A stretch of DNA of 64,000 nucleotides, from NCBI RefSeq assembly GCF_007954625.1, contig NZ_CP042420.1, positions 1,562,501-1,626,500 on the forward strand. Direction: 5' to 3'. Numbering within the stretch: position 1 is the first letter of the stretch; each line of letters opens with the position of its first letter. The DNA is from Leuconostoc lactis. Lineage in GTDB: Bacteria; Bacillota; Bacilli; Lactobacillales; Lactobacillaceae. Under the pieces are notes generated by a model. It had not been told where the DNA came from, made no database searches, and saw nothing but the letters and a program-made list of their open reading frames with translations. Positions 8,900 through 40,128 of this stretch are shown here, one piece after another. Both the position numbers and the translations under genes were made by a program.

Positions 8900-8934
8900 A
8901 TGTGCCGAGCGTTCACATTAAAAAGCTTTAGGAG
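8900..8934 (+). ncRNA. Pseudoknot-like leader element A
   Basis: Stem ATGTG (8900-8904)/CACAT (8914-8918), then an A-rich stretch and GCTT (925-928 of the 8 kb block) that can pair with loop bases GAGC (8907-8910). The ribosome site GGAG follows immediately at 8931-8934. The layout matches the copies at 21.5-24 kb: P1 hairpin, TTAAAA tail, P2 with the loop, then Shine-Dalgarno. This topology is that of small H-type pseudoknot riboswitches; the ligand, if any, is unknown. Confidence 0.6.
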
Positions 8935-8944
8935 ATATCGAGAT

Positions 8945-9484
8945 ATGAGTAAGAAAATCGTTGGAGATGATGGGAAAACGTACGTGCAAAAGAAACCTTT
9001 TTATAAACGCGTTTGGTTCTGGTTGTTAGTGGTTATTGTTGTGATCGTTTTGGGAGGCGGTCAAGGTGGTGGTTCTGATAAAAAAGACACCTCAGCAACA
9101 TCATCAACCAAAGCGACTTCGGAATCCGCCTCATCAACTTCATCAACACAAAAACTATCGGAAGAAGACCAAGATAAACAAATACTTGCTGATTACACCA
9201 CGAAAATACAGGTTCAAACGCCGAAGTCGATTGCTTCATACAATGAAAAAGCTAAGTCGAATCAAGATGGCATGGAGGGTCTGGCAAAACTAAGCAATGC
9301 TGAAGTTTCTGTACTTGCCAAAATTTCTAACGAAGGTATAGAAAAAATGGCTAAAGTAATGATGACTACTGGTAACGGTAAACAAGATACCTATAACAGT
9401 TACGCAGCAAAGCTTCAAGATGTTTACATGGCTGAATCACAGAAAATTATGGATAACTATACCAGTTCTGCAACAGGTCAATAA
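8945..9484 (+). CDS. Membrane-anchored lysogeny-module protein
   Basis: About 179 residues from ATG 8945 (MSKKIVGDDGKTYVQKKPFY). A conserved cytoplasmic start with KRVWFW leads into one transmembrane segment (LLVVIVVIVLGGG), a Ser/Thr-rich linker and a helical extracellular part. The N-terminal 25 residues closely match the Ltp-like protein at 24008 (KKIVDENGNTYVQ, then KRVWFW), but the outer domain lacks the Ltp repeats. No lipobox cysteine is present. Lying between cI and integrase and bearing leader A, it is a good candidate for a lysogenic conversion or superinfection-exclusion protein; this is inferred. Confidence 0.65.
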   Translation: MSKKIVGDDGKTYVQKKPFYKRVWFWLLVVIVVIVLGGGQGGGSDKKDTSATSSTKATSESASSTSSTQKLSEEDQDKQILADYTTKIQVQTPKSIASYNEKAKSNQDGMEGLAKLSNAEVSVLAKISNEGIEKMAKVMMTTGNGKQDTYNSYAAKLQDVYMAESQKIMDNYTSSATGQ

Positions 9485-9508: not shown

Positions 9509-9510
9509 CA

Positions 9511-9541
9511 CGTGCACTATCCACGCTAAAATGGTTTGGAG
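9511..9541 (+). ncRNA. Pseudoknot-like leader element B
   Basis: Stem CGTG (9511-9514)/CACG (9522-9525) with loop CACTATC. Downstream TGGT (9532-9535) can pair with loop ACTA (9516-9519), followed directly by GGAG. Both helices differ in sequence from element A yet keep pairing, which supports a conserved structure. Confidence 0.55.
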
Positions 9542-9549
9542 ATTTAATA

Positions 9550-9927
9550 ATGGGAATGTTGAACGGATTGATTGGCAATGCTTCCGGTGTGTCAATTGAA
9601 AGTGTTAAAGAAGAAATATCACCGCTACTAATTGATGATGAAGTAATTGAACATGCCTTTAAATTAGTACGTGACTTAGTTGTCTTTACTAATAAAAGAT
9701 TGATTTTATCTGATAAACAAGGGTTAACTGCTAAAAAGGTTGAATACAAATCTATTGCCTATCGTTCTATTTCAAAATTTTCTACTGAAACAAGTGGTCA
9801 CTTTGATCTTGACGGAGAAGTAAAAATATGGATATCTGGTCAAGTTGAACCTTCTGAAAGAATAAATTTTAAAAAGGGTCAAGCCTTGACAGAAGTGCAA
9901 CAAATTTTAGCAAGTAAAACATTGTAA
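9550..9927 (+). CDS. bPH_1 (DUF1696) domain protein
   Basis: A 125-residue protein from ATG 9550, which has TTGGAG nine bases upstream. It is almost entirely one bacterial pleckstrin-homology domain of the bPH_1 type, recognisable from RDLVVFTNKRLILSDKQGLT, then AKKVEYKSIAYRSISKFSTE and FDLDGEVKIWISG. The family is small and cytosolic, forms oligomers, and its biochemical role is unclear. It is a common cargo gene in prophages and here sits between the membrane-anchored gene and the integrase. Confidence 0.82.
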   Translation: MGMLNGLIGNASGVSIESVKEEISPLLIDDEVIEHAFKLVRDLVVFTNKRLILSDKQGLTAKKVEYKSIAYRSISKFSTETSGHFDLDGEVKIWISGQVEPSERINFKKGQALTEVQQILASKTL

Positions 9928-21507: not shown

Positions 21508-21545
21508 GTGATATGATCAGCAATCACAATAAAAAAGCTTGGGGG
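21508..21545 (+). ncRNA. Pseudoknot-like leader element C
   Basis: Stem GTGAT (21508-21512)/ATCAC (21523-21527), then an A-rich tail and GCT (21537-21539) that can pair with loop AGC (21519-21521). GGGGGAG follows. The stem sequence is unrelated to the ATGTG/CACAT of other copies, but the layout is the same. Confidence 0.5.
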
Positions 21546-21550
21546 AGCAT

Positions 21551-22168
21551 ATGATTTCAACACTTTCAGGACTAATCTTTATTATTTCAGTTGTCGCCTT
21601 TATCGTTTTTCTGATTTGGGGATTCGTGAAAAACCAGCACATTAATCAAAAAACGTGGCTTTGGTTGTTACTGGCAGTTGTCGCAATCGTTGTCTATGTG
21701 ACAACCGCTAAAACACCAGAAACGGCTAATAGCGCGCAAAACGTGCATAAAACAGCAAAATCAAACACATCAAAGCAACCGGTTGACGACGCTGTCGTTG
21801 CAAAATTAAAAGCGGCGCTAAAGTCTGGTGATATGGTGACCTTTTTGAAAACGTTCTATGCGCAAGATAAACAAAAGCACTTAGCCTATTATCAAAAAGC
21901 CGACGTTGCGACAACAAAGACAACAATCAAGGGTCAAGTGATTGAACCAGTAGCTGAAGAAACAGACCTCTACCTGTATGTCCCAGTTGAGGAAATGCCA
22001 GCCAACGTTCGGAACACAAAGCAAAAAGCCTACGTTGTTGTCATCAATGATCCAAACAATGATCTCAAGAATTATAGTGTTGGTCAAACTGCTGAAGTCA
22101 CGGGCTACTTGGTCGGTCACGGCGACAAAAAGCACGGCTACAGTTGGGAATTAAACGTTGCGAAATAA
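21551..22168 (+). CDS. Two-span membrane protein with extracytoplasmic domain
   Basis: About 205 residues from ATG 21551, placed six bases after GGGGGAG. Two transmembrane helices (LSGLIFIISVVAFIVFLIWG; WLWLLLAVVAIVVYV) are followed by a Ser/Thr/Lys linker. The C-terminal domain has a helix (VVAKLKAALKSGDMVTFLK) and a beta-rich part (TTIKGQVIEPVAEETDLYLY; AEVTGYLVGHGDKK) that could be an OB-like fold. No family is recognised. It is the first of the leader-bearing cassettes at 21.5-24.5 kb. Confidence 0.6.
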   Translation: MISTLSGLIFIISVVAFIVFLIWGFVKNQHINQKTWLWLLLAVVAIVVYVTTAKTPETANSAQNVHKTAKSNTSKQPVDDAVVAKLKAALKSGDMVTFLKTFYAQDKQKHLAYYQKADVATTKTTIKGQVIEPVAEETDLYLYVPVEEMPANVRNTKQKAYVVVINDPNNDLKNYSVGQTAEVTGYLVGHGDKKHGYSWELNVAK

Positions 22169-22173
22169 TACAT

Positions 22174-22191
22174 GCCCGTTTGGGCGTACAT
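22174..22191 (+). repeat. Trailer hairpin module
   Basis: GCCC-GTTT-GGGC followed by GTACAT, six bases after the stop codon. It is one of five near-identical trailers in the window. The 22200-22470 stretch after it is AT-rich; it shares a block around TACTTGCTCATTTAGTAACA with the gap at 23850 and presumably holds the next promoter. Confidence 0.6.
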
Positions 22192-22478
22192 ATCAAACAC
22201 CGTAATCTGTAAAATCAATATAGATTACACATATCCTCTTTCATGTCAGTGTGCGTGTATAAAATAACTAGATATGTAAATTTTAACAATTTTTTCAATA
22301 AAGCTGTTGTGTGATACATATTTTGCAAATCATAATTTTAATACACAACGATAGAAAACCACTTTATGTTTTTTTGAAAGATTCATTCTTCATCTACTTG
22401 CTCATTTAGTAACATTTTGTCAAAAATTTGCTGACATGAGTATTCCCCTGCAGTATTGACTACTTTTTAACAGTAACG

Positions 22479-22554
22479 CGTGCTGAGCAACACGTTAAAA
22501 GGCTCTTTGTAGACGAAATATGTGCTGAGTAACCACATTAAAAGGCTTTGGGAG
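22479..22554 (+). ncRNA. Tandem pseudoknot-like leader elements D1 and D2
   Basis: D1: stem CGTG (22479-22482)/CACG (22491-22494), loop GAGC (22485-22488) perfectly complementary to GCTC (22502-22505). D2: stem ATGTG (22520-22524)/CACAT (22534-22538), loop GAGT (22527-22530) pairing with GCTT (22545-22548) through two wobbles, then GGGAG. Two copies in series 40 bases apart precede one gene, like tandem riboswitch aptamers. Confidence 0.6.
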
Positions 22555-22564
22555 AATACATGCA

Positions 22565-23253
22565 ATGAAAAACAAAAAGGTACGCCACAAACACGGAATT
22601 ATCGTGATGGCTTTAATCTTACTGGCTTGATCATTTTTGTAAGTCTTGTTACAAAAAACTCATCTGATTACACGCCAGAAACAACTACTGAAGAGACTAG
22701 TTCGTCCGACAGTTATAATAGTTATGATGATTCCCCAAAAATTGCCTCATCTGGGGTATATTCATCATCATCATCGATTAGTAATTTTAGCACCGATAGT
22801 CAAACTTCGTTAGCTAATCTTAAAGCAGATGTTTCTACTATGCCGAAAGAAAATTATGAAAATATTGAAAATGAAGTTTTAAAAAAAGCTGATTTTGACC
22901 CAACAAGTAATAATCCAAGCGCCTCATATCAAATCGACGGAATAATGAATGCGTTAAAAAACGTCCAAAAATTAGCTGATGATGCCAAACAGTTAGCTTA
23001 CAAGCCAGATAGGGATTACACCAAAGAGGATAAAGACAAACTAGTAGTATACTCGAATGCTTTAAATAGTTACTTGATAGCTTTTAAAGACTATGCAACG
23101 ACTATATATCATGATAAATATACATCAGAAGATCCTACTACATCAGAATCTGACAAACAACTTCTAATTGACGAAATGAATTCTGCCAAAAACACTTGGC
23201 TCGAAGAAAAAAGTAAATGGTTAGAGCAGTATAACACGATATTGACACAATAA
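22565..23253 (+). pseudogene. Membrane-anchored protein with frameshifted signal anchor
   Basis: ATG 22565 gives a perfect anchor start (MKNKKVRHKHGIIVMALILL) but meets TGA at 22628. The adjacent frame continues LIIFVSLVTKNSSDYTPETT for about 210 codons to 23253. Joining the two frames restores one continuous hydrophobic segment, so one base has been lost near 22625, or a -1 shift is used. The outer part is Ser/Thr-rich, then helical (KNVQKLADDAKQLAYKPDRD). Leaders D1/D2 and the ribosome site are intact. No family is recognised. Confidence 0.6.
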
Positions 23254-23269
23254 AACTCATAATTATAAA

Positions 23270-23287
23270 CCCATTTGGGCGTACATA
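23270..23287 (+). repeat. Trailer hairpin module
   Basis: CCC-ATTT-GGG followed by CGTACATA, about 17 bases after the stop. A degenerate pseudoknot-like copy follows at about 23288-23314 (it retains CGTTAAAAAGCTTC but not a good stem). Confidence 0.55.
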
Positions 23288-23326
23288 TATGCCAATCGCC
23301 CGTTAAAAAGCTTCAGCAAAAACAAC

Positions 23327-23364
23327 ATGTGCTGAACATCCACATTAAAAGGTTCTTAGGGGAG
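23327..23364 (+). ncRNA. Pseudoknot-like leader element E
   Basis: Stem ATGTG (23327-23331)/CACAT (23341-23345). Loop GAAC (23334-23337) is perfectly complementary to GTTC (23352-23355). In other copies these positions are GAGC/GCTC or GGGT/GCCC, so both partners have changed together. GGGGAG follows. Confidence 0.62.
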
Positions 23365-23369
23365 TTTTT

Positions 23370-23704
23370 ATGAAGTTAAAGAAATTAACGGAATTGTTGG
23401 TTTGGCCGGCGGTATCATCCTGCTATTGGGGGGCTGGATCGTTTTGAGCGCTTCGGCTATAAGTGATAATACGTTGAACGTTATGATTGCGCTATTTTTA
23501 GCTTTGAAGGTCGCAATTTTTGTGCTCGGTATTGTCGGATTGGTGCAATTCAACAATACACCAATCCTCACAAAATCACCCAGTGTTTTATTGATTGTTG
23601 GCGGTGCCATTGCCCTCGTCCCCTTCATGGGTTGGGTCGGCGGCATTGTCGCGATCGTTGGTGGTTCATTATATCTAGCTGGATTAAAGAAGTTCCACGA
23701 CTAA
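23370..23704 (+). pseudogene. Small multispan membrane protein, frameshifted near its start
   Basis: ATG 23370, with GGGGAG upstream, reads MKLKKLTELLVW and stops soon after. The neighbouring frame reads EINGIVGLAGGIILLLGGWI and continues through three or four hydrophobic, glycine-rich spans to 23704 (VGGIVAIVGGSLYLAGLKKF). One extra A in the run at 23377-23380 would give MKLKEINGIVGLAGG, a natural start. It may be a real loss, an A-run phase-variable site, or recoding at AAG. Hypothetical tetraspan-like protein; function unknown. Confidence 0.55.
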
Positions 23705-23708
23705 AAAA

Positions 23709-23727
23709 GCCCGTTTGGGCGTACATA
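23709..23727 (+). repeat. Trailer hairpin module
   Basis: GCCC-GTTT-GGGC followed by GTACATA right after the stop codon at 23704. The gap up to 23920 is AT-rich and repeats the TACTTGCTCACTTAATAACA block seen at 22400. Confidence 0.6.
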
Positions 23728-23924
23728 TGGGTTGATAAAGACTCTAACATAACCTAACCGGAAATAACCATAGGATTATTTAAAAATAAACAACTAGCCG
23801 CAAGCAAAATCATTTAAAATAATCACTTTGCTTTTTTAAAGATTCAATATTTCCCTACTTGCTCACTTAATAACATTTAAGACAACAATTAAAACCACGA
23901 CAACACACTACTATTTGAAATAGC

Positions 23925-23998
23925 ACGTGCTGGGTAACACGTTAAAAGGCCCTTTTAAACGAATATGTGCTGAGCAACCACATTAAAAGGCTAAGGAG
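23925..23998 (+). ncRNA. Tandem pseudoknot-like leader elements F1 and F2
   Basis: F1: stem ACGTG (23925-23929)/CACGT (23938-23942), loop GGGT (23932-23935) pairing with GCCC (23949-23952). F2: stem ATGTG (23965-23969)/CACAT (23979-23983), loop AGC (23973-23975) pairing with GCT (23990-23992), then AAGGAG. The 40-base pitch equals that of D1/D2. Confidence 0.62.
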
Positions 23999-24007
23999 TA
24001 TTATTTT

Positions 24008-24529
24008 ATGGCAAAGAAGATTGTCGACGAGAACGGAAACACATACGTGCAAGTAAAGCCACTTTATAAACGCGTTTGGTTCTGGGGGATTGCTGCAGCA
24101 GTAATTATTTTTGCTGTTATCAGTGTATCTGATAGTAAGACTTCTGAATCAAATAACACTACTTCATCAACTTCAGTAGCTCAATCATCCACAAGTAGCA
24201 GCGTTGCCGAAAAACCAAAGGTATCAGCTGAATATTTAGCAGCCTTAGGTAGCGCTAAGACATACTCTGATTCGTTGCACATGTCTAAAGCTGGTATTTA
24301 TGACCAATTAACTTCTGATGACGGCGAAAAATTCCCGGCAGATGCAGCTCAATATGCCGTTGATAACCTAAAGGCTGATTATAACAAAAACGCTTTAGAG
24401 ACAGCAAAAAACTACCAAAAGAATCTGAACATGTCTACAGAAGCTATTAGAGACCAATTAACTTCTGATGACGGCGAAAAATTCACACCAGAAGAAGCAG
24501 ACTACGCTGCACAACACTTGAATGACTAA
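24008..24529 (+). CDS. Ltp-like membrane-anchored protein (superinfection-exclusion family)
   Basis: A 173-residue protein. The conserved start (KKIVDENGNTYVQ, KRVWFW) is followed by one membrane span (about residues 25-42) and a Ser/Thr linker. Two copies of the host-cell-surface Ltp repeat follow: AKTYSDSLHMSKAGIYDQLT with SDDGEKFPADAAQYAV, and AKNYQKNLNMSTEAIRDQLT with SDDGEKFTPEEADYAA. In phage TP-J34 the founding Ltp lipoprotein blocks DNA injection of related phages. Here there is no lipobox cysteine, so anchoring is by a helix. Exclusion activity is inferred. Confidence 0.8.
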   Translation: MAKKIVDENGNTYVQVKPLYKRVWFWGIAAAVIIFAVISVSDSKTSESNNTTSSTSVAQSSTSSSVAEKPKVSAEYLAALGSAKTYSDSLHMSKAGIYDQLTSDDGEKFPADAAQYAVDNLKADYNKNALETAKNYQKNLNMSTEAIRDQLTSDDGEKFTPEEADYAAQHLND

Positions 24530-38286: not shown

Positions 38287-40128
38287 TTACTTCTTTGATG
38301 GGTCAACTTCTTCGAAGTCACCATCAACTGTGTTATCATCCTTTGGCTTTGCTTCACCTTCAGCACCTTCTTGTGGCGCAGCTTGTTGGTAAAGCTTCAT
38401 TGCTAATTCTTGTGCAGCCTTAGCCAATGCTTCTGACTTTTCCTTCAATTCAGTCAAGTCAGCTTCAACATCATCGCCGACCTTTTCCTTAGCTTGCTTC
38501 AATGCTTCAAGGGCATCCTTTGTTGCCTTCTTAGCATCTTCTTCCAACTTGTCACCCACTTCTTCAAGTGTCGCTTCTGTTGAGAAGATCAATTGGTCAG
38601 CTTCGTTGCGTGTATCAACGGCTGCCTTCTTCTTTGCATCGGCTTCTTCGTTAGCCTTTGCATCATTCATCATTTGTTCGATTTCTTCATCAGTCAAACC
38701 ACCAGCGGCTTGGATCGTAATCTTTTGTTCCTTTTGCGTACCCAAATCCTTGGCAGATACAGAAACGATACCGTTACGGTCAATGTCAAATGTCACTTCG
38801 ATTTGTGGCACACCACGCTTTGCAGCAGGAATGTCTGACAATTGGAAACGACCCAAAGTCTTGTTGTCAGCCGCCATTGAGCGTTCACCTTGCAAGACAT
38901 GGATGTCAACAGCTGGTTGGTTGTCGGCAGCTGTTGAGAAGACTTGTGACTTTGATGTTGGGATTGTCGTGTTACGATCGATCAACTTTGTGAAGACACC
39001 ACCCATTGTTTCGATACCCAATGACAAAGGTGTCACGTCCAACAAGACAACGTCCTTCACGTCACCAGTAATCACACCACCTTGAACAGCTGCACCAAGA
39101 GCAACCGCTTCATCAGGGTTGATTGAGTGGTTAGGTTCCTTACCAGTCAACTTCTTAACAGATTCTTGTACGGCAGGAATACGTGTCGAACCACCGTTCA
39201 AGATCACTTCATCGATGTCTGAGAATGACAAACCGGCATCCTTCAAGGCGTTCAAAACTGGTTGTTCAGCCTTCTTAATCAAGTCGGCTGTCAATTCGTT
39301 GAACTTTGCACGTGTCAATGATGTTTGCAAGTGCAATGGGCCTTGGTCACCTGAAGCAATAAATGGCAAGTCGATTTGTGCTTCAGTTGCTGAAGACAAT
39401 GTCTTCTTAGCTGATTCTGCGGCATCCTTCAAACGTTGCAAAGCTAACTTGTCTTCCTTCAAATCAATGCCATTTTCAGCCTTGAATTGTTCAGCTAAGT
39501 AATCGATGATCTTGTTATCGAAGTCATCACCACCAAGGTGTGTGTCACCGTTTGTTGACAAAACTTCAAAGACACCATCACCTAATTCAAGGATAGACAC
39601 ATCGAATGTACCACCACCCAAGTCGTAGACAAGGATCTTTTCATCCTTATCCAACTTGTCCAAACCATATGCCAACGCTGCGGCTGTTGGTTCGTTAATG
39701 ATACGTTCAACTTCAAGACCGGCAATCTTACCAGCATCCTTAGTTGCTTGACGTTGTGCATCGTTGAAGTAAGCAGGTACTGTGATAACAGCCTTTTCAA
39801 CCTTTTCACCCAAGTAATCTTCAGCATAACCCTTGATGTATTGCAAAATCATGGCTGAGATTTCTTGTGGTGTGTAGTCCTTACCGTCAACGTTAACCTT
39901 GTAGCCAGCTTCACCCATGTGTGACTTAATTGAGATAATTGTATCAGGGTTTGTGATGGCTTGACGCTTAGCCACGTCACCAACTTGTGTTTCGCCATTC
40001 TTAAATGACACAACAGATGGTGTTGTACGACCACCGTCTGGGTTTGTGATGATCTTTGGTTCGCCACCTTCAAGGACGGCAACTGCTGAGTTTGTTGTTC
40101 CTAAATCAATACCGATAATCTTTGACAT
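38287..40128 (-). CDS. dnaK: Chaperone DnaK (Hsp70)
   Basis: A 613-residue Hsp70. The ATPase domain is recognised from [20 protein letters not shown], the phosphate motif [20 protein letters not shown] and the conserved [20 protein letters not shown] linker region. The peptide-binding domain and helical lid follow, and the C terminus is acidic ([12 protein letters not shown]). It is third in hrcA-grpE-dnaK-dnaJ, under CIRCE control. Confidence 0.98.

Follow-up and report, generated by a model that had tools for sequence, protein, structure and literature searches.

An H-type pseudoknot between the genes of phages and prophages, traced from a Leuconostoc lactis locus

Described RNAs nearest to the element

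The described RNAs nearest to the subject of this report, a compact H-type pseudoknot with seven copies in a 64,000-nucleotide (nt) stretch of the Leuconostoc lactis genome (the window), are GP20-a (RF02991) and GP20-b (RF03003), which Rfam classes as cis-regulatory and which share with it the junction of capsid and scaffold genes in some phages. Sequence, covariation, and position show it to be an RNA element that lies between neighboring cistrons, or where a cistron adjoins a tRNA, chiefly in phage and prophage genomes. We give a probability of roughly 0.37 to its being an intercistronic barrier, one that would protect the end of the upstream mRNA and insulate cistrons from each other.

GP20 matches begin 14, 17, and 18 nt behind the knot at three loci (L480, L482, and L488, the last two from one genome), and six of ten GP20 loci had no knot at E ≤ 0.1, with L481 giving a weak one only. 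For these two reasons we regard the element as separate, a sister design of the GP20 RNAs with a wider range and not a member. The copy in phage phiIPLA7 scored far below the GP20 cut-offs (14.0 versus 47.2 bits for GP20-a, 13.8 versus 36.2 bits for GP20-b). Searches of 299 genomes of the phylum gave GP20 matches in two and seven of them. The knot ranges far beyond scaffold genes, and the site before a GP20 scaffold gene accounts for a subset, not most, of the copies seen. Read by eye, the 5′ part of GP20-a at two loci (L479 1253-1346 and L480 1501-1587, minus strand) also forms an H-type knot of the same plan, with a second helix (P2) of CCAUGC/GCAUGG and CCUUGC/GCAAGG around UUUAAC or UUAAAA; the Rfam model marks the first helix (P1) only.

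Other described knots are more distant. The leader knot of T4 gene 32 is likewise compact with an A-rich linker (PMC3014915); it differs in serving one gene through that gene's own protein. The STAXI motif (RF01728) consists of tandem pseudoknots near phage-like genes (PMC2864571); it differs in its UUCG tetraloops and its Enterobacteriales hosts, and it had no Rfam match in the window. Two table rows of the same 2010 source list Lacto-int, from Lactobacillales and phages, and the GUCCY-hairpin motif, neither with an Rfam number (PMC2864571). The consensus of our element contains GUCCU, and on a comparison by table rows only, not sequences, both motifs may be partial earlier sightings of it.

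In Rfam 15, a gathering-score scan of the window returned tRNA only and no family at the copies, and at E ≤ 10 nothing was found at the five copies in 22100-24100, copies 8900 and 9510 having been scanned at gathering score only. Twenty further loci gave only tRNAs at gathering score. The earlier note, made from the sequence alone, was aware of no matching described motif, and as regards Rfam 15 it was right. Literature searches that lacked most subscription papers and a 2017 paper on 224 motifs showed no description, and we do not claim absence from print.

Copies in the window and evidence for folding

Three models were used. R1 includes window copies among its rows; R2 has 31 rows, without the window copies and without the Lactobacillales-type P1 (TG/CA); R3 consists of the seven window copies only. 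R1 matched seven copies in the window, each of 28 to 30 nt and all on the + strand (E 1.3e-8 to 1.5e-3), and R2 matched five of these at E 4e-8 to 1.6e-6. The copies, with one candidate that is not a member, are as follows.

8900-8929, + strand: pseudoknot copy, P1 ATGTG/CACAT, P2 GAGC/GCTT, Shine-Dalgarno AGGAG immediately 3′; R2 E 0.017
9510-9537, + strand: weak pseudoknot copy, P1 CGTG/CACG (four pairs), P2 ACTA/TGGT (one G-U); R1 E 0.0015, no R2 match, and absent from the R1 list of copies in the whole genome
22478-22506, + strand: pseudoknot copy, first of a tandem, P1 GCGTG/CACGT, P2 GAGC/GCTC, no Shine-Dalgarno behind; R1 and R2
22520-22549, + strand: pseudoknot copy, second of the tandem, P1 ATGTG/CACAT, P2 GAGT/GCTT, Shine-Dalgarno GGGAG immediately 3′; R1 and R2
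23327-23356, + strand: pseudoknot copy, P1 ATGTG/CACAT, P2 GAAC/GTTC; R1 and R2
23925-23953, + strand: pseudoknot copy, first of a tandem, P1 ACGTG/CACGT, P2 GGGT/GCCC; R1 and R2
23965-23994, + strand: pseudoknot copy, second of the tandem, P1 ATGTG/CACAT, P2 AGC/GCT, Shine-Dalgarno AGGAG immediately 3′; R1 and R2
21508..21546, + strand: rejected candidate, GTGAT/ATCAC; no match to R1 or R2 at E ≤ 1

Where the earlier note had counted eight copies before six genes, the models keep seven and lose the one at 21508, and the genes number five. Two of these carry a tandem, the starts lying 42 and 40 nt from each other.

The element, about 29 nt long, runs from P1 (4 to 5 base pairs [bp]) through a loop L1 of C, the first P2 strand (4 to 5 nt), L2 (as a rule A plus 0 to 2 nt), and the second P1 strand to L3, UUAAAAG, and the second P2 strand. 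Pairing on this plan was tallied in the six window copies other than 9510. Each of the six has five of five standard P1 pairs; the inner four P2 pairs are complete in five, with three of four in copy 23965, which is also the only one to form the outermost P2 pair. On both sides, 4 of the 10 pairs change among the window copies alone, and their covariation score was 0.395, versus 0.230 ± 0.035 in shuffles and at most 0.161 when the alignment was slid. Pair types, at 8 versus 7.5 in shuffles, showed no excess. A loose pattern scan of the window found seven places on the + strand and two on the − strand, whereas 200 Markov shuffles averaged 0.58 per strand and never exceeded 4; the seven + strand places were not matched singly to the seven copies.

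Among 44 representatives (alignment A1), both partners vary in 9 of the 10 pairs, with a score of 0.655 versus 0.221 shuffled and at most 0.160 slid. Because most rows of A1 were picked by pairing (39 came from a scan that demands it, being 40 representatives minus one, and five are window copies), its 93.2% of paired cells is circular and illustrates only. Fairer tests are those that leave the tested helix free. When the pattern fixed P2 and left P1 free, four pairs of P1 formed in 9 of 37, 10 of 22, 16 of 25, and 6 of 8 distinct combinations, versus shuffle means of 1.4, 3.5, 3.0, and 1.5 and maxima of 6, 9, 9, and 6. In the converse test, where P1 was fixed and P2 left free, 33 of 59 distinct cases formed four or five of the five P2 pairs (mean 15.2 and maximum 25 in 5,000 shuffles). 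Two P1 counts were not above every shuffle, namely, 12 of 38 (maximum 13) in the P2-free set and 6 of 8 (maximum 6) in the P1-free set; each is one of the four P1 counts of its set, and the shuffles leave relatedness in place. The P2 types found include UGAGC/GCUCA, UAAGC/GCUUA, UGAAC/GUUCA, UAGAC/GUCUA, UAGAU/GUCUA, UUGGC/GCCAG, and GGGU/GCCC.

P1 and P2 thus both covary when the set is chosen without constraint on the helix under test, exceeding shuffles in most such sets, as the earlier note had proposed for an H-type pseudoknot family, and the reality of the family is close to certain. A DNA operator was rejected, as DNA offers no reason for loop and tail to covary in P2. Three loci (L079, L082, and L083) keep P1 and UUAAAAGG with at most two P2 pairs on reading, at R1 scores of 28.0, 32.6, and 20.2 bits.

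Range, position, and proposed role

Pattern scans covered IMG/VR contigs, bacterial and archaeal species genomes, and annotated phages. One scan of IMG/VR gave at least 120 loci, another pattern gave 72 that were mostly chance-like matches, and the species genomes gave 45 loci, a few of which lack P1 and are probably chance. Between models and scans, the same knot was found in phages, prophages, or genomes of Lactobacillaceae, Streptococcus, Staphylococcus, Clostridia, Vibrio, Stenotrophomonas, Pelagibacter, cyanobacteria, and Bacteroides and in crAss-like phages. Full-length R1 matches came from phages of Leuconostoc, Streptococcus, Staphylococcus epidermidis, Lactobacillus, Stenotrophomonas, Vibrio, Pelagibacter, Nostoc, Microcystis, Synechococcus, and Bacteroides, from a crAss-like phage, and from one Streptomyces plasmid; a copy in an Escherichia phage was a weak match (21.4 bits). 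At E ≤ 0.1, R3 detected the knot in 16 of the 23 sources, phages or prophages, and missed L209, L210, L355, L356, L359, L361, and L364, of which L209, L210, L355, L359, and L361 have full-length copies by R1.

Model searches of family genomes and of phages, the course that had been suggested at the outset, found copies in many phages and in 59 of 301 family genomes at E ≤ 0.01, including 14 of the 15 same-genus genomes listed. At the level of the phylum, 8 of 299 genomes matched at E ≤ 0.001, our own genome counted. That genome has four copies outside the window (R1 E ≤ 4.6e-4, R2 E ≤ 0.003), at positions 39599, 209189, 1234997, and 1235339 of its contig G000:C1; the first two lie upstream of small membrane-protein genes, on a reading of the open reading frames (ORFs).

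Some matches were set aside. Geobacillus phage GR1 and Mycobacterium phage Labelle, both weak BLAST matches with only partial R1 matches (15.0 and 16.2 bits), were not counted, and the second match in Vibrio phage D456 (55529, E 4.5e-4) is likely false, as it overlaps an annotated coding sequence (CDS) on the other strand.

The element is not strictly one of phages, because three Deltaproteobacteria loci (L212, L217, and L224) carry it between cytochrome-assembly and metal-ATPase genes as read by eye. At nine loci, mostly of Clostridia (L213, L222, L226, L228, L230, L232, L240, L242, and L251), a longer conserved self-complementary stretch (GCTATAGCCGTTCACC...) follows the knot, and the two together read as a larger structured RNA. 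Another leader, GTGCGGAGATGCACGTTAAAAAGCGC, is common to 10 viral contigs (L014, L016, L019, L021, L026, L033, L036, L051, L068, and L077), where it stands behind tRNAs or terminators and before phage genes; some of these contigs are of Microviridae-like size.

Of 141 distinct copies, 116 are intergenic, in a scan that demands pairing and with ORF calls of our own as the genes around metagenomic copies. P1 begins 3 to 5 nt after a stop codon in 27 of the 116, and exactly 4 nt after it in 14. Among copies between genes of the same strand, 21 of 82 start at 3 to 5 nt, versus 3.8 expected from uniform placement and a maximum of 12 in 5,000 placements. By GenBank annotation, the five copies of Synechococcus phage S-EIVl lie 4, 5, 4, 4, and 198 nt after the stop, those at 4 or 5 nt ending 20 to 26 nt before the next start. 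The same distance is 3 nt in Vibrio phage D456 and 4 nt in phiIPLA7, Lactobacillus phage CV244, and Vibrio phage 1.238.A; it is 14 nt in crAss-like cr52_1, 22, 25, and 32 nt in LLC-1, and 65, 84, 98, 122, and 172 nt in BO1, BUCT702, NMeng1, Kolga, and Mwe-JY13, respectively. With the stop codon in the A site, a 4-nt spacer would put the knot about at the ribosomal helicase, the nearest place that still allows folding.

This spacing, with a plan that resembles the luteovirus frameshift knots, could also suit a stimulator of recoding, by stop-codon readthrough or frameshifting upstream of the knot. The luteovirus knots and PK1 of transfer-messenger RNA (tmRNA) are alike in being compact with an A-rich linker, and an L1 of C with an A-rich L3 is the plan of stiff luteovirus-type knots. 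The element differs from PK1 in not lying within tmRNA and from the luteovirus knots in having no continued reading frame. Readthrough was rejected on the latter ground, no such frame being conserved across the knot; extensions past the stop are mostly short and differ beyond the element, and 19 of the 27 stops within 16 nt of a copy are TAA. Recoding is the least probable of the explanations that we considered.

A tRNA starts 3 nt behind P2 at four loci (L017, L109, L418, and phage NMeng1, where the annotation has a pseudo-tRNA not called by ARAGORN), and at L180 the distance is 5 nt; in Vibrio phage CHOED the next tRNA is 275 nt from the knot. After RNase P cutting at 3 to 5 nt, the remaining tail would be shorter than most 3′ exonucleases need.

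We favor a barrier because of the covariation of P1 and P2, the intergenic site, the 3- to 5-nt stop spacing, the tRNAs at 3 to 5 nt, the unrelated gene content, and the luteovirus-like plan. The knot would stay folded while ribosomes finish the upstream gene and would stop 3′-to-5′ exonucleases and perhaps sliding ribosomes, a resistance to exonucleases that is predicted from its position. Each segment of an operon might thereby keep its own lifetime and output. In Lactobacillaceae lysogeny genes, where the knot comes directly before the Shine-Dalgarno sequence, it would also have to shape translation of the gene behind. A barrier at the ends of RNA segments may be the common denominator, with the U-tract and Shine-Dalgarno forms as additions of particular lineages. 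More tentative, and in our judgment rather doubtful, is the extension to a phage-wide class whose hosts span four phyla or more, used as a self-sufficient RNA barrier where genes end and tRNAs begin. Facing 3′-to-5′ nucleases and ribosomes, such a class would be a prokaryotic counterpart of the RNAs by which eukaryotic RNA viruses resist exonucleases.

Several observations weigh against a barrier. P1 lies more than 60 nt from the stop in 36 of the 116 intergenic copies, and a full-length R1 match in Christensenellales phage NatCom_6392 (L210 2500-2528, E 2.2e-5) lies opposite an annotated CDS. The tRNAs are not enriched, with 3 of 116 downstream stretches versus 2 of 102 controls, and two of those three stretches (L017 and L180) were added by hand. 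The remaining two observations point elsewhere, the Shine-Dalgarno sequence that follows the Lactobacillaceae copies to translation and the U-tract that often takes its place in other copies as well to transcription.

A translational leader, in which the knot or a factor would set ribosome access to the Shine-Dalgarno sequence or would couple or uncouple initiation with upstream termination, is unlikely yet the strongest of the rivals. Of the 24 copies with a P1 closed by G-C (16 of the 24 with the Lactobacillales P1, the rest mostly from pelagiphages), 13 have a Shine-Dalgarno sequence in the 16 nt or so that follow, the next start is 10 to 39 nt 3′ of the knot in 37 of 116, and a 4-nt stop spacing suits contact with the ribosome. 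The C-G-closed copies argue otherwise, since only 2 of 92 have a Shine-Dalgarno sequence, as do the copies that precede tRNAs and the first copy of each window tandem, which does not adjoin one.

A role in transcription, with knot and U-tract as a polymerase pause, attenuator, or antitermination signal, we consider improbable. Runs of at least four T occur within 12 nt behind 39 of 116 copies, versus 14 of 115 in the following 12 nt and 1 to 6 of 113 to 116 at other offsets (by closing pair, the tract follows 34 of 92 C-G and 5 of 24 G-C copies), and only core machinery is common to the hosts. Yet two-thirds of the copies have no U-tract, many copies lie deep within operons, and the genes behind, such as capsid and scaffold genes, need high expression. 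Compared with an intrinsic terminator, a G+C-rich hairpin with a U-tract behind it, the element has the tract at those 39 of 116 copies and a hairpin of just 4 to 5 bp.

Neighboring genes and biological meaning

Gene content around the copies is unrelated between places. In phages, the neighbors include the capsid-scaffold junction, a single-stranded-DNA-binding protein, repressor and superinfection immunity proteins, small early genes, and tRNAs. In one lysogeny module (L465), four successive genes after an ImmA-like gene and an integrase have one copy each, with two genes between that have none; in another (L466), five copies lie among the genes before the integrase. The genes 3′ of the window copies are the following.

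8945..9484, + strand: behind copy 8900, a small protein with a membrane segment by eye; its sole Pfam match, PF21827, is below cut-off
9550..9927, + strand: behind copy 9510, bacterial PH domain protein, PF08000
22565..23253, + strand: behind tandem 22478/22520, frame broken near its start in the assembly (by eye)
23370..23704, + strand: behind copy 23327, small membrane protein, frame broken near its start in the assembly (by eye)
24008..24529, + strand: behind tandem 23925/23965, Ltp-type surface lipoprotein, PF07553

Other than those with PF07553 and PF08000, these genes have no Pfam family above cut-off. In the two broken ones, the frames from the ATGs behind copies 22520 and 23327 soon hit a stop and the protein goes on in another frame; they are either broken genes or assembly errors. 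The description of the element as a leader of small membrane-protein genes, given in the earlier note, applies to what is the local Lactobacillaceae form of a wider element, which elsewhere lies between many kinds of phage genes and before some tRNAs.

This variety bears on the possibility of a small riboswitch, hinted at earlier by comparison with preQ1-I. The likeness is one of topology, a small H-type knot with an A-rich linker near a Shine-Dalgarno sequence; conserved unpaired C, A, and UUAAAAG and the place of the Lactobacillaceae copies at the Shine-Dalgarno sequence would also fit. The loops differ from preQ1-I, no queuosine genes were noticed, and the genes behind are capsid, lysogeny, tRNA, and other genes. 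P2 varies freely by covariation, and Rfam gave no riboswitch match in the window or at 20 loci. As the neighboring genes share no pathway and the likeness does not extend beyond topology, a riboswitch is not supported, and its chance is very small.

A decoy or antitoxin-like RNA on the pattern of ToxI, binding a host or phage protein, has a slim chance, slightly better than that of a riboswitch. ToxI is a pseudoknot (PMC12373285), and ToxI and abiF have short repeated RNA units in common with the element, which is itself a small H-type knot, stands in tandems about 41 nt apart in the window, and has several copies per phage. Most copies are single, however, and none of the window copies was seen to adjoin a toxin gene, although no systematic search was made. 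The Rfam antitoxin family abiF (RF03085) had no match in our own genome and was rejected as a relative, its consensus being unrelated.

A short hairpin, GCCC-N4-GGGC with variants, followed by GTACATA and no T-run, lies 3′ of the small genes and of the repressor before copy 8900, starting at approximately 8882, 9493, 22172, 23270, 23708, and 24535 of the window. This type, or a CTACATA form, is present also at L055, L072, L083, and L206, and is possibly a processing site or an unusual terminator.

Taken as a whole, a covarying RNA of 29 nt stands just after stop codons, and at some loci just ahead of tRNAs, in phages whose hosts are as diverse as Lactobacillaceae, Vibrio, cyanobacteria, and Bacteroides. 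With hosts so far apart, the element must therefore act through machinery that they share, be it the ribosome, RNA polymerase, or RNA decay. Phage annotation overlooks a functional RNA at the many sites that its copies mark, and the control of expression along phage operons can be tested on it directly. If it is indeed a barrier, it would also be a very small insulator part.

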